Shown: positions 1 to 56,784 of the stretch, in pieces | Numbering within the stretch: position 1 is the stretch's first letter | Layout: each line of letters opens with the position of its first letter | Assembly: GCA_011109175.1 (NCBI GenBank) | Contig: RDEW01000006.1 | Location: 657,232-721,231, forward strand | DNA: 64,000 bases | Direction of reading: 5' to 3' | From: Dicyema japonicum | Lineage: Eukaryota; Dicyemida; Rhombozoa; Dicyemidae | Program-made: the position numbers and the translations under genes | The notes under the pieces: model-generated | Databases searched by the model: none | What the model was told of the DNA's origin: nothing | Seen by the model: the letters and a program-made list of their open reading frames with translations, nothing else

Positions 1-2209
1 GACCATCCAAACCTCAGCAGTCTCAGCAAGTAACGTGTAAAACACAGCTTTATTCTTCTTAGAAAGCATCTTTTGATGTTCGCTACACATATTCTTAATA
101 TCTTCCCTATCAAGATCAGCCACAGAACACCATCGAGAGTCATCCTTTAACAGAGAGACCACATCCTCAAAATCCATTTTATGACTCTTAACCTAACAAT
201 CACACGTGACCATACCAATTCTGACAACATACACGTTAACTTTTCCTTAGCTTCTGCCAACTGATGCAATCTACGTTCCTTATCAATCTCACGCATAGAA
301 GTGCTCAGAGACTCCTGTACTTCCATTTGACGTTCCCGAAGACTTTTAGCCTCTCTTTCCTCTTTACTATTAATCACCTCAACATCCATCACATCAGGTG
401 GGTTCTCCTATCATAATCACGTGCACCCATACCGATTGCTTAGAACTCGTCTCCAGTGAGTGAATATAATCCTCAAACAAATCTGCTCGTCGATCACTGC
501 TACTGATTGCCTTATATCGGGGATCAGAGTCAATTCTACGTTTGACATCTCTCCATCGATCACCAACTGATATGTTCGTCTCCTTCAGTAGCTCGACAAA
601 CTCTTTCGATCGAGAAACCTACTATAACAAAATCATCAACCTTCACTCCTTCAGACTTCTCCCGTCTGTGCTTAAGTTCACTTACAAAATCGTAAAACAA
701 TGACTCTCGGTCACGTGTCCTATCAACCCCTGAAATCTGCTGTCTTTGGAAGAACGTGCAGCAAATTCTGAGTAAGTTGATCTAAACATAAATCAAAAGT
801 TAACCGATGAGTAAGATTAGCCTCCCCTAATAGTTCCCTGAAGTCTTCCTTACGTTTTTTATGCTGTTTATTCCGTTCTGATCTCTCCGCCTCAACCTTA
901 TCCTTCACATACTGTTCAAACACGTGTTGTCGTTCCTTGCTTAGCAATAATGTATAACGTTTATCAAAAACTATTTTCTGTAATTCTTTCTCAAACGTAG
1001 AATTCGTTGAAACCTAGAGTAAACAAAAATGAGCCAACGTTCTTTTCCGCTAACAACTCCTTGAACTGCTCTACTCGTTCTGCGTACGGTAGTGTCGACC
1101 TGAGATTGCTCACCTTCTTTTCCTCTTCCACATTCGTTTCAGCCTTATTGGAGTCAACATCAGTCCGTTTACTGCTACTGGTCTCCACCAGTTCCTCTCC
1201 AGCACGTTTGACCGCTAAATCTGAGTTTATCATGCTACCGGTGTCGTCGTGAACTAAAATAAATCAAATACATACGTTCGATTGGTCGTTCCACTCCTCC
1301 TCCAATTTTGGTTTGTGTTTGATCAACTGGGACACGTCCTTTCTACCCCTTAGTTCGTCAGGACAGTGCCACACCGATCGCTTCTCTACCACGTCAAAGA
1401 AAAACACTCGGTCATCCCCCGTCCACACGACCGACCTTAGGCTTAAACAGAGTCTCTACCAGTTAGTCCCAGACACCAATGTCTTACTGACTGGCTTCGT
1501 CTTATCCAACACTTGCCTAATGGCTGCTTGCTAGAGGATTAGACAGAACACATATACCCTTGACTCATCATCCCTGGAAGAATCTACACGTGACACCACA
1601 AAGTACCATATTTCTGAGCAGCAGGTTTCTCCCACACAGTGTCCCCGATATTTTGTTATAGTAGTACGGGGTACCGTCAGAAACATAGTAAACCAACCAG
1701 GTTGGGTTCTCGGGTAGAGGCTTAAATGTTTAAGAACAATACCATTCCCGGGTTCATGGTGGTTGTTGATGGTACATACTGTTGTTGCATGGCCATGTAC
1801 TGTTGGGAAAGGACTTGGGACTGCTGATAGGCCATAAAGGACTGGTTGGCCATGTCGTTTTGGTAAACGGTCATCCCTTACTTATTTATCAGCAAAAACC
1901 TTGGTAGGGATTCATCACGGTCGTTTGATATGGATTGGTAGCAGCATTCTAAAAATAAGTTCAGTCATTACCGTGTTGGAGATCGATGAATGAGTAGCTG
2001 CCTGGGAATATGGGATAAATCGGGTGATACATGGAGGCGTTGAGGGTGGTGGGGGAAGAGATAGATGAGAATTCATTGCAGTGGTAGATCTCGATAATAA
2101 ATATAGATTACTGTTTATTTTCATCATTATTTTCTGTATTTTCTATTGAATTAACCTGAGATTGCGCAGAATCAGGCACATTTTGATCAACTAGGCAACT
2201 ATTACTCAT
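1..2209 (-). CDS. PRPF40: Pre-mRNA-processing factor 40 homolog (U1 snRNP-associated, WW and FF domains), 3' part outside the window
   Basis: PRPF40 bridges the 5' and 3' splice sites early in spliceosome assembly: its WW domains bind proline-rich SF1/BBP and its FF domains bind U1 snRNP and the RNA polymerase II tail. Here a Met/Gln/Pro-rich leader (PPPPSTPP, MAMQQQYVP) precedes WW1 (W..YYVSDGTPYYYN, then DTVWEKP) and WW2 (W..VWTGDDRVFFFD..KRSVWH). A charged linker follows, then several FF repeats (QFKELLAEKN..FDKRYTLLLSKER; DFRELLGEANL; VSLLKDDSRWCSVADL). About 13 introns of 22-27 nt separate the pieces. The start at 2209 is the first ATG after an in-frame stop. WW1 is out of frame by one base at a C4 run (1643-1646), and a further one-base slip seems to lie near 1260. 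Both fit missing bases. The C-terminus runs off the left edge. Identification is confident from domain order. Confidence 0.9.
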
Positions 2210-2500
2210 CAAAATATAGCGTTGTTTAAAATAAAATTGAATTTATTTTAACAAATTAATATTATTAAATTAATTAAATTCGCATAATTATGATTAAATT
2301 TCTATTGAAAATTTATGAAACTCTGATAGTTCAGCAAACACGTAAGCGACGTCATCTCCTCTTCCAAACGAAAACTAAATTTTTGTAAAAACGCTACTTG
2401 GATACTACAAAAGCTGTCTCCACTCAACATTAAGCCACCTTTTTACGCAATACATACAACTGATAATCAGCTACTGTTGTGCGGCAGGGGGTACTAACCT
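2210..2500. other. AT-rich intergenic spacer upstream of PRPF40
   Basis: The 5' half is almost pure A/T; no gene or repeat was recognised. It presumably contains the PRPF40 promoter, but no motif stands out. Confidence 0.4.
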
Positions 2501-2509
2501 ATCCAACCT

Positions 2510-2740
2510 AAAGAAAATAAACTCCTTCCAAGAAATAGCAACGAGGGCCCTACAAAGGTTTTCCTCTCCTCTAAAGCCAACCCTGTTCGAGGAACTTGTG
2601 AGGAGGACGAGAGCACCGTTGAAACCTCAAAATTTCCGAAAATTGATTCACCTATACAGGAAGTGTGTCGGCGCTCGGGAAGAACACCGAAAAAAGATGA
2701 GGCGGTTTTAAGGAGGCCGGGATCACTTGACGGCCCCCAC
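2510..2740 (+). mobile_element. LINE 3' coding remnant, 'GIT-stop' family, frameshifted
   Basis: The + strand reads FQEIATRALQRFSSPLKPT then REEHRKKMRR and, after a one-base slip, a GIT-type ending (GGGATCACTTGA). The same C-terminal signature (EEH..KMRSLLE..GIT, stop) recurs at 13140, 19985, 46421, 52150 (minus) and 62345 (minus). This is a 5'-truncated non-LTR retroelement tail; the clade is uncertain, and it travels with CR1/Jockey-like RT fragments. Confidence 0.6.
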
Positions 2741-2853
2741 TCTCTTTTATTTTGTCGGTAATTTTAGGTTTTAAAATAAAATAATCAATTACTTTTTTTG
2801 GTTAAGCTGGCTCTTACATAAATGCATGGAAAACATGAAATTCATGGTTAGAC

Positions 2854-3132
2854 TTGTCTCTCTCAGCGTTCAATGTCAGGGGGTTCTGGAGTCATTCCAG
2901 ACTGCCGTCCAACATTCTTTATAAGAGAACGAGGAGTACAACGATTTCGTGCGAGATCTTGGAGACAATATGGAGGCTGTTAGGGCATATACATTGTCTG
3001 GACTTGGCGAAGGCGACCATGGAGGCTCCGCGTTTCCGTAATCGACTGAGGGCAACTCTATCAATCGTCTTTGATGAAGACCTTAACATGCTGCGACACA
3101 TGACAGAGTCGTCAGGGATAGAAGTCAACTAG
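2854..3132 (+). mobile_element. Non-LTR retrotransposon RT C-terminal remnant (RTE-like)
   Basis: A 92-codon reading contains WRLLGHIHCLDLAKATMEAP and RLRATLSIVFDEDLN. This matches the 'RW.LFGH.LRL....A..A.......R....L...L..D' ending common to RTE/CR1-type elements. A related piece lies at 44960-45210. There is no RT core, so it is a fragment. Confidence 0.5.
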
Positions 3133-5065: not shown

Positions 5066-5074
5066 GGTAAAATA

Positions 5075-6265
5075 CACTCGACCCTCGCAAATTGGCCACA
5101 TTTTGAAAAAAAATTCTTAGTGAAAAATCATATTCTCTTTATTAATTGGCCATAATTTTTAATTTAATTTTTTAATAATAATTGGAAAAAAATATAAATT
5201 TAATTAACACATCATCCAACTCCTCTCGTGGGCGCTATACTCGGCTTATTTTTAATGAAAAAACTCAATTAATTATAAAGAAAATGATGTTATTTCGTGA
5301 AGCAGTTAGCTGATAGATTCACAAACATGTTTCGAAAGTCTAAACGGAGAAATTGAATAAATAATCTTTTACTGAGACACTATTTTGAAAGATTCAAAAA
5401 GTTATCACCCGTCTTTTAAAGCTGCACATAAACCAAAGTTTCCAAAACTTGAAGAGAAGTTGGTTGGATGGAGGTAGAGTCTATAGGATAAATTCAAATA
5501 GAGAAGTGGATTCAGAATGCTCAAGTTACACGGAGAAATGCGAACAGATGAATCTGCCGACATTGAATCCTTTCTTGAAGAATTCAAAGAAATTTCAAAA
5601 GCACATAAACCCGACCAAATCTATAATCTGGAAGAAATTGGACTATACTGTATGATCATTCCATCGAAAAGCTGCAGAAACAGATTTCAAGGTTACAAAA
5701 ATTTTGAAGACCGCGTCTCAGTTATGTTTTGTTCAAACATGAGGGGAACGCATAAATTGATAACCAGACGCAAGTTAATCTATTTGACGGAATTAATGGA
5801 AACACAAAATATTTTGGTATACAATTCTTACAGGAAATTGAAACCAACAAATACGGTCTTTTTTACAAAAATGGCTTAGGAAGACGTATCCGGAGACACG
5901 ATCAGGAATTTTTTCAAAGTTTCGAATAACTCCAATAATGAAATTTGTGAAATTAGTGATACAGCAATCAGAACAGACATTTTCGATCTTTTCAAAGTTG
6001 AGGATTTTTTAAATATCGAATACACGAGAAATTAAAATTCTTTCTATAATTTCTTTAATAAGAAAGTACAAAGCAAGTATTATTGAAGGAAAGAAAAAAG
6101 TTAGGAATTACATTTTATTTTAATAAAACTTAAATACGTTTTTTTGTTTATTTAAGGTATTTTTTAATTATTTGTTCATTGATCTGCAAAATTATTGATT
6201 TTATTTTTTTCTAATTGGTCACAAATTTAAGTAACCAAAAATGGCCAATTTGTGAGGGTCGAGTG
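5075..6265. mobile_element. Tigger/pogo-like DNA transposon with 27-bp terminal inverted repeats
   Basis: The inverted ends match almost perfectly: left CACTCGACCCTCGCAAATTG (from 5075), right CACTCGACCCTCACAAATTG read inward from 6265. Each is flanked by TA, as expected for the Tc1/mariner-pogo superfamily. The interior + strand encodes part of a DDE transposase (ADIESFLEEFKEI..QIYNLEEIGLYCMIIPSK, GYKNFEDRVSVMFCSNMRGTHKL) resembling Tigger/jerky proteins. Stops truncate the frame at both ends, so the copy looks non-autonomous, although single-base consensus errors could contribute. Confidence 0.88.
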
Positions 6266-6440
6266 TATGTCGATTATGGCTTTTTCTTTGGTTTTCTGAG
6301 GCAGTGAGGGGGTGGATGACCCTTTATGTCTTTGTGGGCGATTTTGACATAGAATTTGGTCAGCTTGTTTAGATCATCTAAGTTGTAATCTTAGTTATGT
6401 ATCTTTTCGGCGGTAATTGTATTGTGTGTAATGAACGACC

Positions 6441-6950
6441 AAATCGTGCTTCTGTTTTTCCCCGGAAAAAATATGTCTTTATCATGCTTAGATTCAAACT
6501 CCTTGTTCCCTAACGCCACATACAACGTTCGAGGCCTCTCATTTCTATTCAAGAAGGAACAACTATCTGAAGATCTGTCACGTTACAAAATCAACATCTG
6601 CTGCTTACAAGAGACAAAAAATGCCCTCGGATGCGAAGGAACCTTTGGAAACTACCGGATTATCTTACTCCCATCAGACAGTCGTCAACAGCAGAAGGAA
6701 ATACGTTCGAAACTGGGAAGTTCAAATTCGAATAAAAGTGCATCAGAGAAAACGTAATCAAATATCACATTTGATAAGAAAACGATCGAATGACCTCTGC
6801 CACAAATATTTGGACGACAAGGCGACTGAAATTGAAAACTGTCGGGATGGAAGACGAATGTGAGCCAGGATGGTGAGGATGATGTCTGTAAAGCATGGCT
6901 CAAGCGAAAACCTTTTGAGGCTACACGAAATTGCTTGTAACTAACTAACT
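6441..6950 (+). mobile_element. RTE-like LINE, apurinic endonuclease start fused to a 3' piece
   Basis: Encodes ATYNVRGLSFLFKKEQLSED and RYKINICCLQETKN, the opening of an RTE-type APE endonuclease (TYNVR.L....L...L....I.ICCLQETK). It then jumps to a 3' segment (GGATGGTGAGGATGATG..GTAAAGCATGGCTCAAG). The same 5' and 3' blocks are joined, with an even larger internal deletion, at 62665-62895. Confidence 0.7.
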
Positions 6951-9107: not shown

Positions 9108-9499
9108 TCAGCTGTCGGCAGGCTTTGAATCAAAAGTAGTTGATGGGCTTTTCGTACAGACAGTACCTGCACGTGAAAAAATAACCCCTTTTAACAGTTC
9201 ATTGAAGTCTTCGTCAGATCTGGCAGTTTTTGAATGTGTTTTGGAGCTATGATCTTCTTGGTTTTTTTGGCTTGATCTCCCGACAATTCGAGCAGTTCTG
9301 AGTTCAAATAGTCCAAAATTCCCGCTAAATAGACTGCAGCACAATCCTTAACTACAAGTCCAGTGGTTTCTAATAAACTAAATAAATCTTTCCTACTTTT
9401 TAATGCACGCTTCAAACGGGAAACAGGAAACACAACATTAGCACTGGAAGAAAGTTTACTTCCAAATGAAGACTTTTCGTCAAAAGATCCCCCAGACAT
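9108..9499 (-). CDS. Divergent histone H2A-like protein
   Basis: Histone H2A pairs with H2B in the nucleosome. The translation starts MSGGSFDEKSSF and continues VVFPVSRLKRALKSRKDL, then CAAVYLAGILDYLNSELLEL and KKIIAPKHIQ. It ends TARSDEDFNELLKGVIFSRA followed by a Ser/Thr-rich tail. These align block by block with H2A ([50 protein letters not shown]). The acidic-patch positions stay acidic (D..E..E and DED). A 27-nt in-frame GT..AG segment at the usual AERVGAG loop is best read as an intron. A single missing base at the T5 run 9227-9231 separates HIQ from TARSDED. The basic N-tail of canonical H2A is largely absent. Near 120 residues. Likely a variant rather than the replication histone. Confidence 0.82.
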
Positions 9500-16649: not shown

Positions 16650-17785
16650 ATGTCTGAAAATAAGCTGGAATTACCAACGTCTCAAATAACAAATGGTAAT
16701 GGTTCATCGTCAATTATCAGTCAAAGATTATAAACATCTCAAATATGTGAGTCTGATTCTCCTTGTCTTACAATCAAGTTCGGCTGCGATTTTGATGAGG
16801 TACGTACGAACTCGTGAAGAAAGATATTCGAGGCCAACGACCGCTGTTGTCTGCACTGAAGTTATGAAAGTATTAAATTTGTTATTTTGACTGTAATATG
16901 CATGGTTGTTATTGCCTACTACAACGGAGGTGTCCCTGGCTTGATTCACGATATTCACTACCACGTGATCACCAAATATAAGGACATGTTGAAAATGTCT
17001 ATCCCTTCACTATGCTACGTAGCCCAGAACAATCTCAACTATATAGCTGTCTCCAACCTCGATGTCGCCGTTTACCAGGTTTGTACCTGTCTTTATCCTA
17101 GACGTTGCTTCAAATGAAGATCCTCACAACCGCCTTCTTTGCAGTGATCATGTTGAAGAAGAAACTATCAAAAATGCAGATTTTCTCTCTCGTTGTGCTT
17201 ACCATTGGATGTATTTGTGTCAATTTTAAAGTTTTTTTAGTTTTATTTTGCTTAGCCAAGCTCAGAGAAGGTAAATCGCGCCCAAATGCACATTTATGGA
17301 ATTACAAGCGTCATAATTGCTGCCTTTCTTTCCGGATTTTCCGGTGTTTTTACGGAGAAAATGCTGAAGCAGTCAAATCCTTCCCTTTGGTCTCGAAATG
17401 TTCAGGTTTGTTCACTTTAATAGCAAGATGGGACTTTATGGTACCTTCGGGGTTTGTTGGCTGTCTTATTAAAATCCGACAGAGATCAGGTGTTCGAATT
17501 TGGGTTCTTCCAAGGTTACACTATCTATGTGTGGTAAGTTTTGGTTTAACGACCCCCAGGATTGTGATAGTCCTTCAGGCTGTCGGAGGACTTCTTGTTG
17601 CCTCAGTTATGAAGTATGCCGACAATATTCTGAAAGGATTTGCGGCTGGATGTGCCATAATTTTGTCAACCTTTGGATCCGTTCTTATTTTCGGCTTCAT
17701 ACCAGATTTGATGTTCTACTTTGGAATGATGTTTGTGGGTCTTTCGACGTTTATGTATTCGATGTATCCGTATGTCGAACAATAG
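16650..17785 (+). CDS. SLC35A: Golgi nucleotide-sugar transporter, SLC35A family (UDP-GlcNAc/UDP-galactose type)
   Basis: Family members exchange cytosolic nucleotide sugars for luminal UMP across the Golgi membrane. The translation follows SLC35A2/A3 closely: KYVSLILLVLQSSSAAILMR; SIPSLCYVAQNNLNYIAVSN followed by LDVAVYQ; LLQMKILTTAFFAV; FLSGFSGVFTEKMLKQSNPS; VLQAVGG..VMKYADNILKGFA. Introns by frame and homology lie at 16696-16720, 17079-17101, 17231-17255, 17406-17427 and 17534-17559 (22-26 nt). One base appears missing at the T-run 16878-16880 and another near 17457-17458; adding them restores VLNFVILTVICMV and FGVCLAVLLKSDRD. Multiple membrane segments are evident. A2 versus A3 specificity cannot be decided. 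Confidence 0.9.
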
Positions 17786-18907: not shown

Positions 18908-19497
18908 ATGGAAAATTATATTTATTTTAAATATTATTTAACTTGGAAAACCACAAATAATGGATGTTTTGAGGATGACGTGGTAGTTGAGGAAAACTAT
19001 GATATTGAGGATTACGTGGTAGTTGAGGAGTATAACTATCCTTTTGAGGATGACGTGGTAGTTGAGGAATATAACTATCCTCTTGAGGATTACGTGCTAG
19101 TTGAGGAAAATAACTATCCTTTTGAGGATGACGTGCTAGTTGAGGAGGATAACTATCATCTTGAGGATGACGTGCTAGTTGAGGATAACTATGATTTTGA
19201 AGATGATTGGGGTTTCGAGCGTGACAACTTTGGAACTGCTGTTTCAGTTAATTTTATTCCTCATCTTTCTAATATTCCTCGTTCTATTACTATCCCTAAA
19301 ACTTCGATCATAAAATACGAAAATTTTGATGACTTTTGTCCAATTTGCCATGAAAATTATACAAATGACTCACAAGTTGTGCAATTGGATTGCAAACATT
19401 CGTTTCACTTTCAATGTATATCTTCTTGGTTTGAGGTTTGTTTGGTTATGTATTTTAGAGCAATAATAGTTGTCCTTATTGCAGAAGAGAGTTGTAG
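18908..19497 (+). CDS. RING-H2 zinc-finger protein with acidic 13-residue tandem repeats (probable E3 ubiquitin ligase)
   Basis: RING-H2 domains recruit E2 enzymes to transfer ubiquitin. After a short leader (MENYIYFKYYLTWKT) there are six tandem copies of a 12-13 residue unit of the type EDDVVVEEYNYPF (36-39 bp, about 18972-19205). The RING-H2 follows: CPICHENYT..VQLDCKHSFHFQCISSWFE. A 23-nt intron (19436-19458) then gives SNNSCPYCRREL and the stop. All eight zinc ligands (C-C-C-H-H-C-C-C) are present. The acidic repeats have no recognised function. The substrate is unknown. Distinct from known RNF families by the repeat block. Confidence 0.85.
18972..19205 (+). repeat. 39-bp in-frame tandem repeat inside the RING-H2 gene
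   Basis: Six units begin GAGGAT(G/T)ACGTG(G/C)TAGTT and vary mainly at synonymous sites and in the linker (YNYP, NNYP, DNYH, NYD). The first and last units are three bases shorter. Confidence 0.9.
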
Positions 19498-23932: not shown

Positions 23933-26900
23933 CTAACATTTACATAAATAATCACCATTGAACTTAGACAGCTTATTATTCACTATATCAATATTTTTCA
24001 TCAACTCATAGAACACGTGGTCTATGTAAAATTGGGTCGATAATAAACGAGGAGGGTCATTCAAAGAGAATGAAGAAAAGAACTCTTTGATCAACCGAAA
24101 GTTGTTTAGATGCAAACTATAATCAGGTGTGAATTGTCTCTTAGACAAAACAGAACAATACTTAAATAACACAACAACAAATAAATTTAATTTCCCGCCA
24201 AAACAAATCCTCAAAAGATGACTGCAATTAATATATAAGAATTACATTATCAACAATCAATCATCAAAACAACTACAATCACACGCCAGAGTGTAGAAAT
24301 GTCTGATCGGTTGGAGATGGTATCGACTACCAATGACAAGTGAGTGGAAATGAGGGTAAAAGGCACATAACATACCACAATACCACGTGGAGTACATGTC
24401 AGCCGATGTCTTATATAATCACTGTCCATTACCGGCATTTCGCAAAGAAGAGGAGACCAATGGACATTGCCACAGCCATTTGTGAACCATAGTTGACATA
24501 TTTGTACTTATCATTACTCACAAACCTGCTTCTCAGATAACGACAAGTTGCAAGGACTGTCACACAACCACTCCCAGACATAATCTAATAATAATCAAAT
24601 CTACCAATGAAGCAGACAGAATGAGACACAATATTGTATTCTCTTGGATGGGGGATACACTGTATTCCAAAAATTTGTAGAAAAAAACCCAACTAAATGA
24701 GTTAACTGCAAACAATAAATTCCATAGCATTACGGTCATTACTGCTAACCAGTTTAAAGCCCACTACCAATGCCCATCCCCCAAATGAGCCATAAAACAC
24801 TCCCTGTCATATAACCACTCAACAACCTCAACTCCCTATTATCCAAACGCATACTATCAAGTGTTCTATGGCATCCACTAAACATTCTAAGGCATTACTT
24901 CATGAATTACATATAAAGGTAAGGTTGACAACAAACAGTCCCCTGTGCAGTCCAATCGTTTCCAGTCAACCAAACAGAGGGAGAGAGACTTGGTAAACCA
25001 AAATAATACTCTAAGAGTGAGAATACCCGGTTTATAAGCAGACAAACCCAAAACTCCATTCTGTAAAGAAAGACTCTCAATAATGAATCTGTAGTAAGAA
25101 AGACCAGACCTATTAGAAGTATTGAAATATAAAAGTCCCAGGGCCACTGTTGCTGCAAATGAGGTGTTTATTCTCGACCGTCCTAAAATGAGTACAATAA
25201 TAACTCTGAGAATTTGACTGGGTTTGTTCTGAGCACTTCCACGCAGAGAGTACTAATTGTTAAAATCAGTCAAACGATGCGAGACTTTCTGCTACCCTCC
25301 ATCAAATACAACAAAGTCTGGGACATTTTAGCAACCTCATCACTGCAGTCATCCCCATTCTATATTCATCAGATAAATAACAACTCCCATGACGATCATT
25401 CCAAATGATAGTCCAACTCAAAGTGAGTATGCCTCCAAACCCACAGTATTATCTTGAGAGGAAAAAAACACAGCTAATATAACCCCATTATAACCAATCT
25501 CATTAAGTATAGTATTCAAAAGGGAGGCATTTCACGCTCTAAAGTGTACCATTCCAATGCTAAGAATTGCTGCTGATTGAACTGGGAGAGGAAACTCAAT
25601 CGTACAACTCCCACTAAGGAGTGCTGTACTATGCACATTCAACAAGGAAGTAACAGCCATATCACCAGTTCCAAACCTACTAATAACCGCACAAATAACC
25701 TTCCCGCAGACATTCCAAGCAACACAGCCATAGTACATTGAGTATTACCCTGCATAACATATTGACTAACAATCTTAAGGTAGTTATCCTGTAATCTAGA
25801 TGTAATGTCCTGTAAATGTCCATTCAGTCCCAATCCAAACAACATTCCGGAATATTCAGATGTAACGTTCCCTGTTTTGAGTCTGTGGTACGAAATCCAG
25901 CCAGAATCAATCTAAAGTAGTATTAAGACGAGACTTTGGAATTCTGTGAGATCCTCAGTCCAGCAGACACTCCATTGTGGAATTCTCCCCACTGTGTCAA
26001 ACTAGCGTAGACTTCCTTATTTTTAACTTCAATCAGTTTCCCCCTTAAATGTCCCCAATCACATACGTAGAAGTCAGTTTTGCAACAGTCACCAATTCTG
26101 GAATCTCAAACGTCTCAGATGCGTAGAATTGACTGTCCCGATAATTCATTATTCCTCTAAAATGAATTAGCAGTCAACCTTCCCACAGAATTGGCATACA
26201 CTCGAACTAACATTTTCCCCAAATCCTCCTCTAACGACTCGTAGTTGCTTAAGTGAAAGGATAATCTTACATCAAGTCATCGTCGTGTTCTATGGATGGC
26301 ATAATAACCTGGTCACTGCTACTCAACATTCGCGCTGCATCAATCATTCGGCTGTCAGATGGAAATGGTGGACTAAGGTTTGTCACTTGCTTTCTTTTTG
26401 CTTTCTTGAACGTAGATACTAAAATAATAAAACAATGACATTTGGTAATCAGAGGACAGGAGATAAGTTGTTGATTATGCGAGTACTCAATAACCCACAG
26501 AATGGCATAAAGACAGGGAATATAAACACATTGAGGAAGAGTCTCAGTGTCAACAGAAGTTATATCTTTTTGTTTAATATTGTATACTCAGTTTATGCAT
26601 GGCCAGTACTACCCTCTCCATTAAATTGAGTTCCTTATTTTCCTTCTTCTTCATTGTAGCTTCCACAGCTATGCTAACCAAATTCAACTAACAAAATCGA
26701 AGGCGGTTTCCAAACACAGATTTTACTTGAAGGTGCATCTCTGAAGAGAATCTCCGATCAGCAATAACCAAGACAAGCTGTTTCATCATATTCTACACAT
26801 ACTTGCACTGCCAGTTTGGTGTTCTCACAAACCCCATCAAAGTAGATAAACTTAGGGAGAGTTTCGCCAGAGTAGGCAGAACTGATCCACTTGTAAATAT

Positions 26901-28991
26901 TTGGGGTGTTGGACAAAAGTAAGTACATTCAATAGACTCCAATACAGCTAGAATGACCACACAAAACAACGAAAGTGATAGGAGGCAAAGTCAAACTCCA
27001 ATCTAGGATCATCCCTCCAATAGTGGTGGACATACTCTATCAGAGATGACTTTCTACAGTAATATTTAATAACACCGAGCAATGTGGTACAAAATTTCCC
27101 CCAATTCTGGAATATAAGTGAACATGTAACGGATTAATTTTAAATTCTAACATTAAACATTCATAATACCTCATATACTAAGTGTAAAGCAAATAAAGTG
27201 TCCAGCAAACAGTGAGAGAGAATGCAGTTGTCAGAATAGCATGTGATTGGCAGAAGACCACTAATTCCTCGGTTATTTGTCAGTCTCTTGGCTTTTAAAA
27301 ACTCCCAATCCTTCAGTAATACAACAAATTACAGAATTGTCACGCGGTCTTTTGGAACAGAAGATTTCACACTTCCTTTTTTCTACAGTAAAATAATAAA
27401 CCGACAATTTTTTCGTAGTCTATTAAAAGGCCACAAATTTCAGCCAAAAGTGTCTCAATCGACTCCATTCGTCCTTTTGTGGGTGATTATCCTCAAAGTT
27501 TGATCCTTTGGTGTACCATAGTCCAAATATACAACTGGCTATGGACGATGGCAGTAGTTTTAGTAATCCTTTCAGGCACATTCCGACTGATCACATAATG
27601 TAAACAAATACCAATTTCCGTAGAGAAAGCCTCCTCAAATACAACACGTTTAAATTCCGAGGAAACTTCCTAGAAAATTAATTCAAGCACAAACCATGAA
27701 GACACAACGATCGTATGATTCCACCAACTCACTGAATAATCCGCTGTATTCGTCTAAATTACCCAATATATCAATTACTAAAGTCTGAGCAATCCGTTGG
27801 AAAGAAAATGAAATCTCAGTGACCTGTAATATTCACAAAATAATAAAGTGAGGTTCACTATAAAGCTTAAATGACAAATTTGTAAAAACGACCAAGGTTG
27901 AATTGAGTCCTTTAACAAAACAAGCGTCATAGCAAGGAATGATGAGTAACTCCGTCCAATCGAAGGTATTTTTCGCTTTAAAAGAAATCATCCTCAATTC
28001 AGAAGACACCAAGTAGCACAGATATTCCGTCCCCGATACATCTTCACAGACGAATGCCTTCTCCGCCTTATTTGTACAGCTAATCACATGTATTAATAAA
28101 TTTACGTCTTCTCATTCCACACCCTCTCAAGACATATTTGAGAAAGAACGCTCTTTAAATGGTCTCATGGTTGAGAGAATGAAGAGAAATTTTGAATACT
28201 GAAAGCAGAGAGTCTCCTGGAAAAGGGACGTTAATGCTGTTCTGAATAATGGATTTAAGGCTCCTCCTAATTGAGGAGAAGAAGAGGGACGAATAGCCAG
28301 TTGTTGCATGATAGACTAGGTTAGATTAGAGGGTTGGGATATGGAGAAAACATCATGATGAGTAATTGGTCGCGTAATACATATTACATGCACGTGAGTA
28401 GAACAGTCGTATAGTAGGACAAAGGGGTGGTTAGGAGAAGTGAAAATAATATTATAATGGTCGTGTGAGAAGTATTCTACTCGTTGAGAGTGTTCTTCTA
28501 AAAGTACTGGGGCTAGTTCATCAAGGGGGTGAGAAAGACTAAACAAAGTGGGGATTCCATTAGACGGAGACTGTATTCTGAATAAAAAAGCCTCGAAGAG
28601 ACACCACATTTGGTACACAACAAATGGGAGACTGTTGTACAGCCAATTACCGTCTTTGTTTCGAACGGATAGGATTCCCCTATTATCTAATATCCAAATT
28701 CCATCCTTAAGGAAAACCTAAGAATGAAATCATATTATAACTGATTTGACGTTGTCTTCCATTGTATATCGTTTGAAAAGATGTTGTGTAGAGGGGGATA
28801 ATCCACTTGTTAACAGGACCACGTTATCGCAGTAGAGAACTTCGACCTCCTCATCATTTTCATACGATGTAGTGTCTACAAACCACTTTGGAGTCTGTTA
28901 TAGTTGAAACAAATACTACAGAGTTTATTCCAAGTTCATTAATGTGTTTTATCCCATTTGGGATAAATTCTTCAACATCAGACAATTTCAT
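23933..28991 (-). CDS. ANAPC1: Anaphase-promoting complex subunit 1
   Basis: APC1 is the largest scaffold of the APC/C ubiquitin ligase that drives anaphase and mitotic exit. The N-terminus starts at 28991 (MKLSDVEEFIPNGIKHINEL). Clear APC1 matches follow: IWILDNRGILSVRNKDG, then PTLFSLSHPLDELAPVL and YNIIFTSPNHPFVLLYD, equivalent to human FSMLHPLDEIAP..LRIVFLNTDPSIVMTYD. The middle holds proteasome/cyclosome-type repeats (PLPVQSAAILSIGMVHFRA; YYGCVAWNVCGKVICAVISR). The last reading ends LSKFNGDYLCKC, stop at 23933-23935. The first two introns are 22 and 24 nt. Many later frame changes were not all resolved, so exon borders between about 24215 and 27830 are approximate. At about 1.6 kaa it is somewhat shorter than vertebrate APC1. 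Confidence 0.85.
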
Positions 28992-29059
28992 AATTTAACC
29001 GCCTATTTTAAATTAAAAATTTATTTTTATTATTATTAAAAGAGTCACCATATTATATA

Positions 29060-42038: not shown

Positions 42039-43431
42039 ATGCGTTTTAATTCTTTATTGTGGAGATCTGCATTGCCTCTTTTTCTTATGATATCTTCTCC
42101 GTTATTCGCTCTACTGTTATGGTATAACTTTTCTATGAAGAAATAGCTTTATAAATTTAGAATCCGATGGAACATTCTCGAATCTTAACGAGAATTCTTT
42201 ATGGGGACTTTTATTTAAAATTTTGCATAAACGTCCAGTCACTTTGTTCTCGGTCGCAATCATAATTGGATATTCTGTACTGAGTCTTACTTTGATGCGG
42301 ACACTTCCCGGTTAATTTATTTCAACTCATTCAAAGGCAACCTACTTCCTGGTAGTCCCTCTGAAAGTGGGTTTACTCCGTTTTTCAAGGATAATGGATT
42401 TAAGCAATATATTTCAACAATGCTCATTTTATGCTGTTTGCAAATTTTTTTAAAAAATTATGGCTTATCGATTTCGATTATATATGACTCTCTTCAAGAG
42501 ATATGCTACTGTCTTAACTTTTTTGCTTTGATTTTCTGCTTTTTTCTTTTGTTCAAAGGAATTTATTATCCGACCAACGACGATTGCAAACCATCGGGGA
42601 ATCTGATTTTTGATTATTACTGGGGGACAGAGCTTTATCCGAAGGTCTGGAATGTTGACATTAAGGTAGGGCTAATTTGATGACATAGGTTTTTACAAAT
42701 TGCAGATTTGGGATGCTCGTGTGGGCAATTTTAGTTTGCGTATATAGCGTTAAGAGTTGGGAGTTGCATGGGTTTGTCGATTCAATGTTTGTCAATTCAT
42801 TCCTACAATTATGCTACATTACCAAATTCTTTTGGTGGGAGATTGGATACATGCGGACAATCGATATCGCCGTTGATAGAGCGGGTTTTTATATTTGTTG
42901 GGGATGTCTTGTGTATGTGCCGACGTTGTACACTATTGTTTGTATCAGTAGGCTTTTATTTTAGACGGGAATGTATCTTGTTAAACACCCAGTTCATCTC
43001 GGAACAGCTTGTTCGGTTTTAATCCTATTTTCTGGATTGATTTCTATTTATATAAATTATAGTATTGATTGGCAAAAGAAGATAGTAAGGGAAACACGTG
43101 GAAATTGCCTAATTTGGAGTCAAAAACCAAAAATGATAAGAGCGGCCTATATTACAACAGAAAATAAAAATGTCATTCTTTTTTGTTAGCAAGTGGATGG
43201 TGGGGCTTGAGTCGACATTTTAATTATTTTTCTGAGCTGTGTTCTGCACTTTGTTGGACATTGCCTTGTGGGTTCTCCAGTTTAGTTCCATACACCTATT
43301 TTATCTTCCTTTTCGTTCTTTTAATTCATCGTAGCATTCGTGACGAAAAGAAATGCAGTTTGAAATATGGAAACCATTGGAAGGAATATTGCACTGCCGT
43401 GCCTTATAAGATTTTCCCGTTTATTTACTAA
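42039..43431 (+). CDS. DHCR7: 7-dehydrocholesterol reductase
   Basis: DHCR7 reduces the C7-C8 double bond of 7-dehydrocholesterol with NADPH in the ER membrane, the last step of cholesterol synthesis. Matches along the family: GIYYPTNDDCKPSGNLIFDY; FWWEIGYMRTIDIAVDRAGF; YLVKHPVHLGTACSV; GNCLIWSQKPKMIRAAYITT; ASGWWGLSRHFNYFSELCSA; RDEKKCSLKYGNHWKEYC; and the VPYKIFPFIY terminus. RHFNY and NCLIWSQKPK distinguish it from C14 reductases (LBR/TM7SF2). Introns at 42122-42146, 42311-42336, 42666-42688 and 42938-42964 (23-27 nt). One base is missing at T6 43179-43184, immediately before LLASGWWG. Several membrane helices are visible. Start at 42039 is the only ATG in frame; about 427 residues. Confidence 0.9.
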
Positions 43432-48486: not shown

Positions 48487-50371
48487 ATGACTGTTAAAAA
48501 GACAATAATTAATATTTGCCATGAAATTGAACAAGTTACATAATAATTTTAACAATCCAGTTTATTGACACCGATGATACTTACAAAGTTGTAACTCTTG
48601 TAGAAGATCTCGAAAATCAATGTAAACTATTATGCAAGGAAACCATGTCTGGAATAATTCGCGGTGTGGTCATTCCTATTCTAAGTATTTGTATTTAGAA
48701 TATTCTAGAAGACTTACTAAATTACAAACTCTATGATTCAGTATGCAGATTTATAGTGGTCTGGCGATGGCTCATTGATTTAGAACACGGGGGAAGCCAA
48801 TAAAAGGGTCTTAATCCAATTGGTGCCCATTTTAGTACCCATGTTGATGGATCTGGTCATTTCATTGGACAAACTGACTGCCCTGGACGTATTCTTATAA
48901 TTAAAGGTCAGATTTTGTATTCTGTAAACTCTATAATATCTCTCTGTCCCAAACGGCTATTTGAGATGTTGAATGATGTTAAACGGAAAATGTGGCTTTT
49001 CTAATAAACTTAGATTTAAACTCTTTGACAATGTTCTCACTTTTGGCGGTTTTTTTTGTTCAAATATAAAAGATGTGGTATATCAGTCGGAAATCTTCGA
49101 ACTACTCATCCATTTTTCAATGGGAGAGTTATTGGGCGTAGATTATATAGATTTACTGTCAAATATATCGGCTGACAACTACATTCAGGCAAATAGTCTT
49201 TAAAACATTCAGACTCTCAGGACATGGGTAAATTGCATAAACGGGACCGATGGACTCATTAAAAGTGCAAAAATTCGTCATTCTGAGGAAGATTGGGTGG
49301 ACTGGAACCCAGGAACTTTGAGATTAATCTGCTGGAACTCAGAAATGGACATTCCACTGTGTCATATTAGACACATCCACATAGAAAGTGATTCCCTCTC
49401 AATGTCTTAGAAAATATACTCAAAATTTGGACTATGTTTGGTTTATGCGTAGAACAGCCAATTTCTTTAACATTCGAAGAAAACGATGCTACTCTCAGAT
49501 TCATTTCCTCCTTCACTGAATCCTGTGAGGCGTTTCTGAACGAAAAGGCGTGTGATTCAGAGTTATGTGAATGTCCCTTTACAACCAATCGCTCACCTAA
49601 GCACGAGGGGCCGAAGCTAAGGTCATCTAAGCAAACAAACAATGAAGTAAGGTATAAATTAAGAGCAGAACGATGATAATGAAAACGTGGTTGTCCAACA
49701 ATTAGAAATAAACAAGAAAGCTGAGGGCGGTTTACAACAGGATGTTATGAACAGACACGTGGTATGATATCTCTCACAATGTAGAGTGAGCGTAAACGTC
49801 CTAAGTTAGACAATTCGGAAATACACAAGCCTGCGATGGCTCCCCCAAACAAATGCGCGTCTCTTCCAGTGACCGACAGTGAATTCGTTGATTCAGTCAA
49901 CCTTGAGTCCCGCATCCAAAAGTGCATTTATTTCGCAGAAAAGTCAATCAAGCGTGAATTGTAGTCATTCACTAATACTGCAGTAACATTTACAGCGACG
50001 CTCAATCAGCTCTCACAAAATATCAAGAACTGGAGAAAATGGCCGAGGAACTAACAAAGGCTGCTAGATATGACTTGGAGAAGATAGAGGTAGCCTTAAT
50101 TATTGTTGGTAGAAGGCATATATTCTGTTCAGGTCGAGGGTTAACGACGTAATAAAGATGTACGAGGCAAAGTACTGGCTGGTTTATTTTAGTTATAAAA
50201 AATTTGAGGAGAAACTATCGAATATGGAGGGCAAGATAACTGATATTACACGTGAGATTCTCTCTGTAAGGACTGAGCTTATTTTAGGTGAAACCCCCCG
50301 AGGAAATTAACATGATGATAGCTAAGGATATCGTCATCCAGTGTATAGAGAGGGCATTCGCAGATTTCTGA
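48487..50371 (+). CDS. Unrecognised multi-exon protein: helical repeats, then a coiled-coil C-terminus
   Basis: Spliced reading: MTVKKTIINICHEIEQ, FIDTDDTYKVVTLVEDLENQ, SGIIRGVVIPILKDLLNYKL, NKRVLIQLVPILVPMLMDLV, ILYSVNSIISLCPKRLFEML, FKLFDNVLTFGG and ENILKIWTMFGLCVEQPISL. A charged middle follows (ERKRPKLDNSEIHKPAMAPP), then SALTKYQELEKMAEELTKAA, VNDVIKMYEAKYWLVYFSYK and the end AKDIVIQCIERAFADF. The hydrophobic helical pairs resemble HEAT/armadillo-like repeats; the C-terminus looks coiled-coil; KRPK is a possible nuclear signal. Introns are mostly 22-26 nt. A missing base at 49407-49408 would join SLSMS to LENILKIW. An in-frame TAA near 49201 and the joint around 48740 remain unresolved. 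No family assigned. Confidence 0.6.
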
Positions 50372-50474: not shown

Positions 50475-51535
50475 TCACAGTTTTCTAACCATATAGATGA
50501 CCAATACCTCATCCTCTGTCTTCCATCCGATTAAATATAAAATATCAAAGTCCGCAACTATCGGATTGGCAAATTCGGGTGGCACATGTCCAGGGAATGG
50601 GAATTCTTTAGTGTAAATCTCATTGGCTCGTGACAGTACTGCACGTGATAGGGAGGGCTTCCGTTTGATAAGACAGTTGGATTCTCCCATATATTGGAGG
50701 TCCTTCATTAGGTGTCTCATTGACGGGTACCCCATCTGCAGTCTCTCCATATCCTAACACGCATAATAGCTCAGTCAAACCACAGTGACTAGTCTAAATC
50801 CCACACTCCTTAAAAGGTCTCCAAGCGAACCGATGGTCACAAACGGCGAAACATGGAGTCCAAATCCCTATTGGTGTTAAATAACCCTACTCCTTCTATC
50901 TCCTCCTCTGCCGCTTGCAAGGAGTGCCTTAACTGACAGAGGGTTTCGTTTCCCAACATAGATGCTATAAAACAGCCCTCGTTTTTCAAGATAGAAAAAA
51001 TCTAATAAACAAAAATATTACATTTTTAAACAGGCCACGTAAGTCGTTAACCCAATGTAGACTATTAATTTAAAAATACAAGACCAGAGATTGCTTATTA
51101 CTATATCGAACGCAAAATCCTCTCTGAAACACAAATTCTCCTCGTCCATTTGTAGAGAATCATGCTGGTCATTGTGTGCTGTACGAATAACGTTAGATAT
51201 TTCGGTTTTCACAAGATATTTAATGATATCATCTTCTAGAGAACGAGCCACGTGGCTTCTATCGCAACCAATTTCAAGGCCAAGAGGAAATTCTCTCTTT
51301 ATGTCGTACATTCTATCAATTAATTCTTGAGCTCCCTAGTGATAAATAGACTTAGTACTCTTTCCTTGAGATAACCCGAATCATGATTAACACGTGCAGA
51401 ATAATTCTTATGTAGAAGTTTAACTTTTCTGTCAAAGATAGGAGCATTTGTACTAGAGCATAATCTCTTCACTAATGACAGATTTCTTGAAATTCTCATA
51501 ATAAATCTCAAGCAACTTTGACAACTTGAATGCAA
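50475..51535 (-). CDS. NDUFAF5: NADH dehydrogenase (complex I) assembly factor 5
   Basis: NDUFAF5 is a mitochondrial methyltransferase-fold protein that hydroxylates an arginine of NDUFS7 during complex I assembly. The translation starts MHSSCQSCLRFIMRISRNLS (basic, Ser-rich, a likely mitochondrial presequence). It continues APIFDRKVKLLHKN, YLKER, then QELIDRMYDIKREFPLGLEI. SAM motif I appears as EIGCDRSHVARSL. Then FAFDIVISNL plus CLHWVNDL, ILKNEGCFIASMLGNETLCQ, FGLHVSPF and YPSMRHLMKDLQYMGESNCL, ending DFDILYLIGWKTED. Each block matches the human protein in order. Five introns of 20-27 nt were placed. The motif I glycines (GCGRG in human) read GCDRS here. Length near 310 residues, slightly shorter than human. 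Confidence 0.92.
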
Positions 51536-52640: not shown

Positions 52641-52813
52641 AATGCGAATCAATCCCCAATGCCGCAGTACTCATTCCTTTTAATTTAAAATATTATTTTT
52701 CCAACTTTTTTAGTCTAAAAGAATTTTCAAATATATTTAAAAGATAAAATTTGTAATTAAAAATTAATGAAAAATTAATTTATTAAATATTATAGTCTCG
52801 TGCAGCCGGTCAA

Positions 52814-55800
52814 ATGTCCGACGTTGTAAAAAACGGAGATAATTCTGAATGGTCTCTTTTAAACGTAAAAGTGCAATTTCCAAACAACAAACAGTCCGAA
52901 TATATGGTCCAAGTCATTATGTATAAAAGATAGTTTCAAATGAACTTATTCTCGACTTACGCCAGTCTATTATTGACAATCAAATTAACCGCACGTGCTT
53001 CGCTCTTTACTACAAAGACAAGGAATTGGACAGATTTGAAGAAGTTGGAAAAACAGAACTTGAAAATGGCTCAGTCATTAAATGTGTCGATGGTCTGCTT
53101 TTCCTCTCCAATTTTAGTTCCCTACAATCTGAGGGAAGCACGTGCCCACTTTAGACATATCCGGGAATTTTTGTTCTCTAGTGACCAAGAAGCCTTCATG
53201 GGAACCCGGGGTCAGTCTCTGTCTACTATTTCCAAGATCTTCAAAGAGGGTATGCTTGAAAATGAATTATTCAGAAAATTCCGATAATCAAATAATTGAT
53301 TATCTCCTACCAGGAAGCGACAAGAAGTCTGTACCTTTCACGGCTCTTTATCCTCTATCCACCAACAAAAAATGTTTCAAAGTCCTCAGTCTGAGCGCTT
53401 GGAATCCTCCCCCATCAAACCGCCAATTAAAGGGTAGATTGACCTCTCATTTAAGGGGATCTATTCTACATGTTTGTGGTCACAAATGACGACAGGAAAA
53501 TACACATTACTGCCTGCGTAGATGGATTTTATGCAAATAAGTGATGATGGTTAGTTATTTTAGTTCTACTGACGACACCTTCTCTCCTACTCCCATAACA
53601 AAGTCTCCTCCTTACCATTCTCTAATTGATCTGTTTTCCAATGTAGTTAATTTCTCATTATGAGATTTCTGACCATTTCAAGCGTTCGTTTAATGCTCTG
53701 GTGGAACGAAATAAATCCAGAGACCCTTTAGAAACAGTGCCCACTCCCATTCAGACATATCCGTGGTTCAGTCCAGACATTTCCCACACTCAGGACTATC
53801 TGAGGGCTGAGGATGGTTCCCATGCTGTGATTATTCCTAGGATTTGGTCATCGTTTGGGATTTGAGGAGAATTTGCCTTGCAATGTGAGGAATTGGAATG
53901 AAGAGTATCAATCTAGCAGGGATGTCCCTACGAGACGTTGACTGAGAAAGTAGCACGTGACAGGATTACTTTTAGAGTATTTATTTGTTATATTTTAGGT
54001 TTACTGTGAGATGATCGCCACTGCTGTATTGGGGTGCTGTGACGCTTTTAATGGGAGTTTGATGGCAGTCAACCACAGTCAGGAGGAAAAGTAGCTTGTT
54101 CATTGATTTAAAAGTAATAATGTGTACTTGTGGAATAATTTGTTCATTTCCATGGCCTACGATGTGGCCAAAGTCTTCACTCAATTAGGTGGGGATTTAG
54201 CTGCCCATTACGCCCAGGTTTTGTGAGATATTATTAAAGAATTTGGACCTCCAGGGAATATCCGCAGTCTCCTCTATAGACAACACGGGAATCCATACGC
54301 TAGGGACTGTTATTGTTGACTACTGTGGAAAGCGGATGTGTGCCCAATCTATGATTGCTGGTATCATTATTTCTAATTGTCAGGTATTATGGAAAAAATG
54401 GAGAAATTGGTTGTGTACGGATTGTGTGAAAGCGGAGAGACCAAAGTCATCAAATCCAACGAGGATTTTAATAATAAAGTGAATTTGGTTGTTTATTCAA
54501 GTTGGAAGTACTTTGTGATAATTTTGGATTGTGCAGACACAAAGTATGGAACTATGAGGGAGAAGAACAAGTTGAAGTTATTCCGTCCGCTGAATGTAAA
54601 GGAATTATTGGATTTGACTCTCGCTATTACATTCTCGACCTCAGTCGGTTCTTTCCTGCTGATATAAATTATCTTGCTGGTCTGTATGGCTATTCACTAA
54701 TAGACGATGTCCCCTTTGACCAGTTTAGTGAGGAACTGAAGCTAGGGGATTTCCTAGAAGCCACGTGCATAAACTGTGTTCTATCCGTAATGAGCTGGTC
54801 TCCTATTTTATCAGGTCAATATCTCATAATATTTAAGCCATAAAAAAGAAGAGTTAATTCAGGCATATGTTAAAATTAAAGAAGTCAAGGGAGTCGATTC
54901 CAGTTCTGATGATTCTGAATGCTTAAAAGAAGCGCTTAAGGAAATCGGATCCCTTTCTGAATCAGATCTGAAAATTGGGTTCAATCCTGACTTGTACCTG
55001 CAAAGTGTAAGGTGTGTGGAGGTTTGGCTTCAATTATAATATTAGGGCGATGATCTGGAAGCACAAAAACGACTAAACAGAGAAATCTGCCATTTTCTAG
55101 TGATTTATCAAATCCCTTATCTCGTGAGTGGGTGTCTTACTCTTAGGTTGACTTTTTGATGGAGGAGTCTGTTTATTCTGGGGAGGAGTTAGTTCAGTCT
55201 ATGCATTTAATGTATTTCGTGTTTATATTTGCAGGGGGATTAATGTACGCTATTTAGGTGAAGTAGCCCGTCTGGCTGAACAACGGAAGTTGTCGTTTAT
55301 CACGGTAGTCTGGTGTTTGTTATGTAAAGGAGAGTTGCATCTACCAGATGATCTCAAGAGCGGTTAAACACGTGTTCAAAAAACTCATGGATAAGGTCCC
55401 GGCCTCACAGAGGGCGACCTCGATAGTGCATATTTTAAACTGCTTTTTGTTCCGTGATACTACCAGACGGGGGAAGAAAGGAAAACCGAAAATCTCTGTT
55501 GTTATTGGTGGACTTGATTATGGGACATTTTGGGACTCTATTAAGTCAGAAGTTACCGACTACTTTGGATATGATTTGGAAAATGTCGATTTTTGCTCGA
55601 GAATTGTTTTGCTGAGGCTGTTCTGCACTACTTTGGGGATCAAAATCAAATTTAATAATTATTCTGGAATATTCGAAAAGCTAACGTCGCCTCCATTTGA
55701 GCCTCTGTTTGTGGAAGATGACATTATTGGTCTGTTTCCCCGTGTAAAATACCCTGCTCTTTCAGTAACGATGAGACTTATTGTAGTTAATTGATAGTTC

Positions 55801-56784
55801 TCAATCCATTGTAAAGGCGAAGTGGTTGATTAAAAATGGGAACATACAGGATGGGTACAATCTAATGAATGAAACTATGCTTGTCATCAATGAAGTCTTC
55901 GGACCGATGCATTCTCAAAAGGCTTTAATTCTTTCTTTGTTGGCCCGCGTTAATTATGTAATGGGGGAGTTCACTACTGCCTTTGAAATCCAACGACATG
56001 TTTCTTTTATGTATGAACGACTTACTGGAATCGACTCCTTTGAGACTATCTCATCACTCGTTGTTTTTTTATTAATTTTGTAGAACTTTTTAGCGCTGTA
56101 CTCTTTTGCTGTCGGGAAGGCTGAGTTGTGTCTACGTCTGCTTATGAGGATTAGATATCTCAGTCTATTTTACTGCACCGAGGAGAATCCTCGCTTCTTT
56201 ATGATTGACGTTGTCTTTAGGTCTCATTTTCTTAGACGTGCATTGGTTTGGTGTTGCTGAACTGGGGATGGCGGATTTTGCTGAAAAGTATTTTTCTCAT
56301 GCTTGTGATATTGCCGTTCAGTTTGATAATTTGATTGTAAGTGTCAAATTCGCATTTTTGCTATCTCTGAAGGCTCAATCTCTCGCATATATCAGATTGT
56401 ACAGAGAAGCCATTTGTTGTGAACAGAGAGTGCGAGTGATTTACTCCAAGGAGGTTGCAAGTGTGCTTTATATTAGCTTGGGGACGATAATGTTATGACA
56501 GATTCTTCTCGTCAGAGACTCCGAGATTATACGAACCACGCAGTCGAACAAAAACGGATGATTAATTCTAACAAGACACCGGATTCGTCTATGATTGTGT
56601 CGGATATGACCAAGTTTCATTTATCGAAGGTTTTGTGCCTTAGTCATCTCAATTTCATTTATGGAATCCGTTATGATTAGTTGGCTTAATGTTACTATGT
56701 TTTAGTGGCACTGGGAGTGATAATGTGGAACAGAAAGTGGACCAGTCTGTTATTGATCAGACCATTACTGAAGATGTAGAGTAA
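52814..56784 (+). CDS. CLUH: Clustered mitochondria protein (CLU/CLUH)
   Basis: CLU/CLUH binds mRNAs for mitochondrial proteins and controls mitochondrial distribution. The start [20 protein letters not shown] leads into the ubiquitin-like N domain ([40 protein letters not shown]). Next: [58 protein letters not shown] plus VDYCGK and [20 protein letters not shown] (the CLU domain). Then [39 protein letters not shown], and TPR-like segments ([40 protein letters not shown]). Each matches human CLUH in order. Introns are 22-27 nt with one of 39 nt. The last exon joint is uncertain: [18 protein letters not shown] with the stop at 56782-56784 is preferred. About 1.2 kaa. Confidence 0.9.

Follow-up and report, generated by a model that had tools for sequence, protein, structure and literature searches.

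Introduction

Dicyemids are tiny animals that live in the kidneys of octopus and squid. Here we describe the spliceosomal introns of a stretch of 64,000 nucleotides (C148:657232-721231, GC about 0.38; the whole stretch is referred to as the window) from an assembly of 64.67 Mb in 191 contigs, in which a first-pass annotation had noticed mostly 20–27 nt GT..AG introns throughout conserved genes. Introns of this size are already known from dicyemids, having been in print in 2007 and 2019, and the core finding is not new. For D. acuticephalum, Aruga 2007 (PMC2222250) gives 26.2 ± 1.9 nt (n = 16), and Irimia and Roy 2008 (PMC2483917) tabulate 25 nt for 41 introns; these introns resemble those described here in being very short and uniform, in occupying several conserved places and in having a weak 5′ splice site. 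A median of 27 bp is printed for Dicyema sp. (PMC6543705) and a mean of 38.2 bp for D. japonicum (genome 67.5 Mb, GC 36.7%; PMC6736024), which share with the present assembly a compact genome with about 5–6, mostly tiny, introns per gene. The introns placed by homology in this work (23.3 ± 1.2 nt, n = 65) fall below the lengths published so far for dicyemids.

Outside the dicyemids, the ciliate Stentor coeruleus has introns of 15–16 nt, with a near-constant branch A at position 10 of 15, i.e. −6, and canonical recognition by U1 and U2 (PMC9505925); the earlier description of the window's introns as close to the physical minimum is too strong as a general statement. Giardia and Spironucleus have fused branch and 3′ splice sites, the branch A lying a few bases before the AG, with a strong consensus and few introns (PMC6679479). 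For introns of the minor spliceosome, a survey that excluded lengths below 30 bp names Blastocystis as the shortest on average (just under 42 bp, median 39; PMC10639083). Against this background the tiny introns are a known phenomenon, and branch geometry and a minor spliceosome, both read from sequence, would be the new part.

Intron lengths

Introns were placed with our own spliced aligner, which allows any intron length of at least 10 nt and carries no length prior. The homology-placed set comprises 36 introns from PRPF8, 20 from CLU and 9 from two aldolase genes (n = 65), with a mean of 23.34 nt, a standard deviation (sd) of 1.22 and a range of 20–27 nt; three doubtful CLU joints and three PRPF8 end joints were excluded. 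PRPF8 was located via its U6-binding domain and has 2,668 relatives, among the best 120 of which the top named match to a hand-joined query is Lingula (81% over 70%). Using either Lingula or Capitella PRPF8 as the reference yielded the identical 36 introns, all of 20–26 nt and with GT..AG ends. At the N-terminus, one reference gave additional joints of 41 and 658 nt and the other a joint of 2918 nt; these resemble end effects and were discarded. Over a stretch containing 12 PRPF8 introns, GT–AG ranked first among all 256 terminal dinucleotide pairs (3205 vs 3029 for the next pair). The two aldolase genes contain introns of 23–27 nt, four positions being common to both paralogues. The 5′ splice site is weak: among the 65 introns, 38 have G at −1, 39 have A at −2 and 59 have A or T at +3, with little further.

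Within the window, CLU (52.8–56.78 kb) provided the homology-based test. It has 26 homologues with E-values down to 1.5e-184, and a profile of 16 of these, each also run singly as a reference, placed 23 introns, 20 of them at 22–26 nt (Table 1); the three doubtful joints (14, 17 and 62 nt) were dropped. The 39-nt intron previously proposed at 55007-55045 gave way to one of 24 nt, which fits better (7/16 references vs 3/16). Three further joints that single references support were left uncounted, namely 52907-52929 (23 nt, 6/16), 53924-53934 (11 nt, 9/16) and 54680-54732 (53 nt, 8/16), the latter two sitting at apparent one-base indels as judged by eye.

A gene finder that trained itself from PRPF8 and CLU as seeds was run on 264 kb containing both, with a flat length prior of 12–80 nt. 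With splice-site matrices, themselves derived from introns of 18–30 nt, it returned 105/153 introns at 20–27 nt with modes at 22 and 23, 9 at 16–19 nt and 39 scattered over 35–80 nt. Without matrices, 57/103 fell at 20–27 nt, 11 at 13–19 nt and 35 were scattered over 29–79 nt. Five introns of 16 nt in the run with matrices, and one in a window model, are not claimed; four were checked by eye and have GT..AG alternatives of 22–25 nt. A count that uses neither homology nor a model, i.e. of GT..AG segments that on removal connect two open reading frames (ORFs), gave 112 at 22 nt and 122 at 23 nt. Per length this amounts to 50.5 at 20–26 nt vs 43.7 at 30–60 nt, a modest excess which is absent from five control pairs (37.4–43.5 vs 42.0–45.8). 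Moreover, gaps of 22 and 23 nt separate contiguous profile positions in a probable U2AF65 gene on contig C114. The earlier observation of mostly 20–27 nt introns in conserved genes is borne out by the 65 homology-placed introns and the flat-prior peak at 22–23 nt; judged from sequence, the ultra-short introns of the window are confirmed as real.

Two codon models were tried and rejected. The first, with generic amino-acid frequencies and confined to the CLU region, produced three fragments, of which two contained wrong introns (73 and 52 nt). The second, trained solely on PRPF8, gave a single low-complexity match over the whole window, a failure attributed to the large difference in GC at third codon positions (GC3) between genes. 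The contrast in composition extends to the introns: PRPF8 has a GC3 of 0.19 and introns of 87% A+T, CLU a GC3 of 0.43 and introns of 69% A+T.

The assignment to a dicyemid follows from the aldolase on contig C68. Among 7,999 scored candidates, its best match is Dicyema acuticephalum A4PCF1 (601 bits), with 75% identity over 361/361 residues and neither gap nor frameshift in the spliced alignment. This D. acuticephalum protein also provides indirect evidence for the removal of the segments from mature RNA. The other matches above 448 bits among the best 120 listed, named Acer (612 aa, 585 bits), Camelina (526 aa, 542 bits) and two Toxocara (472 and 465 bits), are all longer proteins of 461–612 aa. 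The suggestion of a dicyemid-like genome is upheld on this basis, i.e. by one gene only, and at 75% identity the genome is hardly that of D. acuticephalum itself. Named dicyemids are found neither among the best 120 of the 2,668 PRPF8 matches nor among the 26 CLU matches.

Position of the probable branch site

The branch signature was analyzed in 105 distinct introns from genes other than PRPF8, with expectations from 300 shuffles of the intron interiors. An A at −7 from the intron end is present in 56/105 introns, compared to 26.1 (sd 4.3) after shuffling, and none of the 300 shuffles reached 56. The motif yTnAy occurs with its A at −7 in 19/105 (4.1 expected) and at −8 in 11/105 (4.2 expected); allowing the A anywhere from −6 to −9 gives 38/105 vs 16.7, again beyond all 300 shuffles. 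Position −7 lies outside the matrices used in choosing the ab initio introns. In the matrix-free run with CLU and PRPF8 excluded, 20/28 introns have A at −7 (7.2 expected; the 28 overlap the 105), and the long, mostly false introns of that run have it in 9/30. Measured from the 5′ splice site, the A most often lies at a distance of 15 nt, in 42 of the 95 introns having an A at −6 to −9.

We consider it fairly likely that the A at −7/−8 is the branch point, at a distance of roughly 15 nt to the 5′ splice site and 6 nt to the 3′ splice junction. The branch and 3′ splice sites would then be practically fused, the varying portion being the 5′ part of the intron, and short length itself would define the intron. 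Several observations weigh against this assignment. The 15-nt peak was computed by taking −7 first and then −8. The signal is weaker in introns placed solely by homology: in CLU and aldolase an A at −7 occurs in 12/29 (7.3 expected, 13/300 shuffles reaching 12), although their yTnAy count at −6 to −9 is 11 vs 5.1 expected (2/300 shuffles). PRPF8, with its AT-only introns, is without a yTnAy excess (11 vs 10.3, 129/300 shuffles) and has a slight excess of A at −7 (20/36 vs 14.7 expected, 14/300 shuffles). No A is found at −6 to −9 in 10/105 introns, and the unanchored best match to UACUAAC in introns outside PRPF8 is not above shuffles (z 1.2); the signal is seen only when anchored to the intron 3′ end.

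These data could also reflect introns without a fixed branch point, in which the A at −7/−8 is a side effect of U2AF reading a TTATTTTAG-like 3′ splice-site context while the branch A floats. Such a floating branch would account for the absence of a yTnAy excess in PRPF8 and for the modest one in CLU and aldolase, and would agree with Irimia and Roy 2008, who describe dicyemids as having no branch-point signature (PMC2483917). Still, the excess lies in yTnAy at −7 and −8 and not in A alone, the top hexamer printed for D. acuticephalum (ctaatt, 4.88%; PMC2483917) fits this motif, and the Stentor branch A sits at −6 (PMC9505925). We regard a floating branch as unlikely, albeit a competitor to be kept in mind, and retain the A at −7/−8 as the putative branch point.

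The signature reported as absent from D. acuticephalum is present here, as an excess of A at −7 and of yTnAy in the 105 introns. This corrects the printed dicyemid description and leaves class membership intact. A positive branch signature in dicyemids was not found in the open-access literature, although Ogino 2010, available to us as a citation only, may hold branch data; as far as the literature searched reaches, the signature (A at −7/−8, yTnAy) is new. Compared to the 15-nt introns of the ciliate Stentor, the dicyemid has about 5–6 more bases between the 5′ splice site and the A, whereas the two agree in the spacing to the 3′ end, given the Stentor branch A at position 10 of 15. The likeness to Giardia and Spironucleus lies in the branch A a few bases before the AG, the difference in a weak consensus and many introns (PMC6679479). 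An invariant branch–3′ splice site sequence of the diplomonad type was not found, yTnAy with A at −7/−8 being present in 30/105 introns; the dicyemid introns work like the fused diplomonad sites without being members of that class.

Major spliceosome and in-frame stops

The components of the major spliceosome that were examined appear ordinary. After two bases, U1 starts with ACUUACCUGG in five of six copies shown and with ACUUACUUGG in one, and U2 has GUAGUA in both copies shown, with 22/25 U2 matches exceeding the Rfam cut-off. Six U2 snRNA matches lie within about 110 kb on contig C115 (851074-962467). The SF1-HH domain was found above its cut-off (80.5 bits) and the PRPF8 gene is present. 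U2AF65 is probably present too, judging from five exon matches on C114 of up to 82.6 bits, its cut-off of 310.3 applying to the whole protein. As a point against, 0/11 U1 matches reach the Rfam cut-off (best 69.0 vs 69.5). With U1, U2, SF1 and the probable U2AF65 ordinary, we infer a normal spliceosome acting on nearly minimal introns: dicyemid U2-type introns would have shrunk to about 23 nt (20–27), and a major spliceosome that is otherwise canonical would excise them. That these ultra-short introns, the dicyemid genome and the canonical major spliceosome hold jointly appears highly probable from sequence data.

Introns with a length divisible by three nearly always contain an in-frame stop. 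In the true frame this applies to 14/15, vs 15/30 when the remaining two frames are read (p = 0.007) and vs 22/50 of the other introns (p = 0.0008); the three-divisible class itself makes up 15/65 (p = 0.09 vs one third). The pattern suggests decay of transcripts that retain an intron, and nonsense-mediated decay may be what clears them, a proposal that we hold as evenly balanced. Against it stand the small size of the stop test (15 introns) and the terminal TAG, which contributes in-frame stops to phase-0 introns. A similar stop pattern has reportedly been described in Paramecium. As far as the literature searched reaches, in-frame stops in three-divisible introns are new for dicyemids.

Minor spliceosome and U12-type introns

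U12-type introns are recognized by their own 5′ site, a TTCCTTAAC branch and AT–AC ends. Rfam matches above cut-off were obtained for U12 (85.4 bits), U11 (67.6) and U6atac (37.0), and minor snRNA matches in prokaryote control genomes were below the cut-offs only. The 5′ part of U12 is able to pair with TTCCTTA. U4atac is a probable further component: the candidate scores 32.4 bits vs a cut-off of 53 and can form 12 contiguous pairs with U6atac of the same genome, one of them G–U.

A matching intron is found in a SMAP-type ArfGAP gene on contig C137, where a 48-nt segment reads ATATCCTTT...TTCCTTAAC TTTTAC. Following its removal, the product aligns ungapped to SMAP1 over 90 residues (2crr, 109.6 bits). 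GT–AG cannot restore the alignment (79 vs 111), but homology does not fix the ends, as GT–AC ties at 111 and was printed first by the aligner, and other pairs reach 117; the ends given here are decided by the motifs. A second case is a phospholipase C (PLC) gene on C126, with ATATCCTTT...TTCCTTAAC ATTAAC over 50 nt before the Y domain. This segment is one base off frame, after an A run, and is a probable U12-type intron. Both genes also have a 23-nt GT–AG intron, in the PLC gene as judged by eye. Genome-wide, the U12 pattern shows no excess (109 matches, nested ends included, vs 162 in the reversed control). Of ten matches inspected, two coincide with a matching joint in a recognizable gene; the other eight were judged by eye alone.

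Across the two U12-type introns, one of them firm, the branch-to-end spacing is −8 by inspection and the start-to-branch distance about 40 nt. A separate minor spliceosome (U11, U12, U6atac and probable U4atac) would serve these few longer introns of about 48–50 nt. The combined picture of two spliceosomes on two miniature classes, U2-type introns of about 23 nt with a near-fixed branch A (−7/−8, start-to-A distance about 15 nt) and U12-type introns of 48–50 nt, is one that could go either way. If true, the 3′ half would be minimal in both intron classes and the U12 machinery would need a longer 5′ half. A minor spliceosome in so reduced a parasite, with introns twice the major length, would suggest different lower size limits.

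Alternatively, the minor-spliceosome genes and U12-type introns could derive from contamination, for instance by the cephalopod host, octopus sequence having had to be removed from a published dicyemid assembly (PMC6736024). The company in which they occur makes this very improbable: the 23-nt GT–AG introns stand beside the 48-nt segment of the SMAP-type gene and likewise (by eye) in the PLC gene, the U12 gene shares C68 with the dicyemid aldolase and a U2 gene, and U6atac lies on C34 together with U2 genes. U11 is on C1 and the U4atac candidate on C169 (148,730 bases); contig company was checked for U12 and U6atac.

The dicyemid shares the U12-type 5′ site, the TTCCTTAAC branch, the AT–AC ends and U11/U12/U6atac with the systems of the minor-intron survey, whose main text contains none of the strings dicyem, mesozoa and orthonect (PMC10639083). 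The words U12 and splice site are likewise absent from the Dicyema sp. genome report (PMC6543705). U12-type introns in dicyemids were not found in the open-access literature and, as far as the literature searched reaches, a dicyemid minor spliceosome with U12-type introns is new.

Indels and insertions

Apparent one-base indels occur in the window at about 53936, 54740 and 16872 (by eye) and in PRPF8, where one frameshift is required with both the Lingula and the Capitella reference; some lie within homopolymers, which suggests base errors in the assembly. Such indels make a few joints in conserved genes imprecise and count against the intron assignments. Together with the nine-codon insertion that the aldolase paralogue L054 carries at the place of an L053 intron, the indels in PRPF8, CLU and near the SLC35A start would fit segments that are insertions (in-frame or frame-shifting), errors of sequencing or the decay of pseudogenes, an explanation that is scarcely credible considering 36 segments of 20–26 nt with GT..AG ends in the single PRPF8 gene, GT–AG as the best of 256 pairs on 12 of them, the L053 aldolase becoming collinear, once the segments are removed, with its D. 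acuticephalum counterpart over 361/361 residues and four intron places shared by the paralogous aldolases.

Genes of the window

The remaining genes of the window were modeled ab initio (Table 1). As this run carried a bonus for 20–27 nt, it is no test of length. It placed 59 introns in 14 model pieces, 55 at 18–27 nt and the others at 16, 39, 41 and 44 nt; those of 39, 41 and 44 nt are supported by the ab initio model only.

Table 1. Introns and intron-bearing genes in the window (window coordinates; for CLU, support is the number of the 16 single references that agree with the profile)
Feature	Length	Position	Strand	Support
CLU intron	25 nt	53093..53117	+	16/16
CLU intron	25 nt	53250..53274	+	15/16
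CLU intron	22 nt	53434..53455	+	16/16
CLU intron	23 nt	53541..53563	+	16/16
CLU intron	22 nt	53643..53664	+	15/16
CLU intron	25 nt	53816..53840	+	15/16
CLU intron	22 nt	53977..53998	+	16/16
CLU intron	24 nt	54091..54114	+	16/16
CLU intron	22 nt	54218..54239	+	16/16
CLU intron	23 nt	54361..54383	+	16/16
CLU intron	23 nt	54479..54501	+	13/16
CLU intron	23 nt	54815..54837	+	15/16
CLU intron	24 nt	55022..55045	+	24 nt in 7/16, 30 nt in 6, 39 nt in 3
CLU intron	23 nt	55124..55146	+	8/16
CLU intron	23 nt	55212..55234	+	9/16
CLU intron	25 nt	55305..55329	+	10/16
CLU intron	22 nt	55765..55786	+	14/16
CLU intron	24 nt	56060..56083	+	10/16; 21-nt alternative 56063-56083, 6/16
CLU intron	26 nt	56210..56235	+	10/16
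CLU intron	23 nt	56454..56476	+	15/16
PRPF40-type gene, 14 modeled introns	13 at 18-26 nt, one 41 nt	1..2218	-	FF domains 114.2 bits
SLC35A-type nucleotide-sugar transporter intron	23 nt	17079..17101	+	ab initio
RING-H2 gene intron	23 nt	19436..19458	+	ab initio
ANAPC1, five model pieces, 23 modeled introns	21 at 20-25 nt, one 16 nt, one 39 nt	24256..28994	-	
DHCR7/ERG24-type intron	23 nt	42666..42688	+	ab initio
DHCR7/ERG24-type intron	27 nt	42938..42964	+	ab initio; inside PF01222 match
Gene with 11 modeled introns, two pieces	22-25 nt	48555..50368	+	
NDUFAF5-type methyltransferase intron	23 nt	51062..51084	-	ab initio; Methyltransf_11 41 bits, spliced model
RWDD2-type intron	25 nt	59441..59465	+	ab initio; clear RWDD2 joint

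Introns had been proposed in a series of named genes, and for several of these splicing improves the match to the Pfam family. For SLC35A (Nuc_sug_transp, PF04142) the score rises from 100 bits for the longest unspliced ORF to 164.7 bits for the spliced model, and for DHCR7 (ERG4_ERG24, PF01222) from 31.6 to 108.4 bits. With the RING-H2 intron removed, the zf-RING_2 match covers 3-44/44 (54.2 bits) instead of 3-35/44 (35.1 bits). Acidic short repeats (EDDVVVEENYD...) precede the RING-H2 domain at 18971-19220. The NDUFAF5-type model has further introns of 20, 44, 27 and 23 nt, and the one ANAPC1 piece tested matches Apc1_MidN with 39.7 bits.

Other parts of the annotation did not survive or are doubtful. 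The supposed H2A gene is one exon (9159-9451, minus strand) with no intron inside, and its identity is not established (PF00125, 18.8 bits vs a cut-off of 26.4). The gene annotated as a seven-transmembrane (7TM) receptor has no Pfam match, and neither has the one piece tested (49204-50368) of the gene at 48555..50368. An intron of about 43 nt suspected near 48736 is replaced in the model of that gene piece by introns of 24, 25, 23, 22 and 24 nt. For RWDD2, the RWD match is below cut-off (17.7 vs 22.8 bits), and a candidate 15-nt joint (59576-59590) keeps the frame but leaves about two residues too many, as judged by eye.

A near-identical long ORF (GLCGVVQLSERILMRMHDTLIAG...) is present in the window at 29209-30312 (+) and at a nearby locus (L021, about 5764-6654, −), and ORFs resembling reverse transcriptase by eye lie at 32381-33157 and 56929-57468 of the window; together these are probably retroelements. 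On contig C157 (126628-152716), a histone gene is arranged in tandem repeats with a spacing of about 5 kb.

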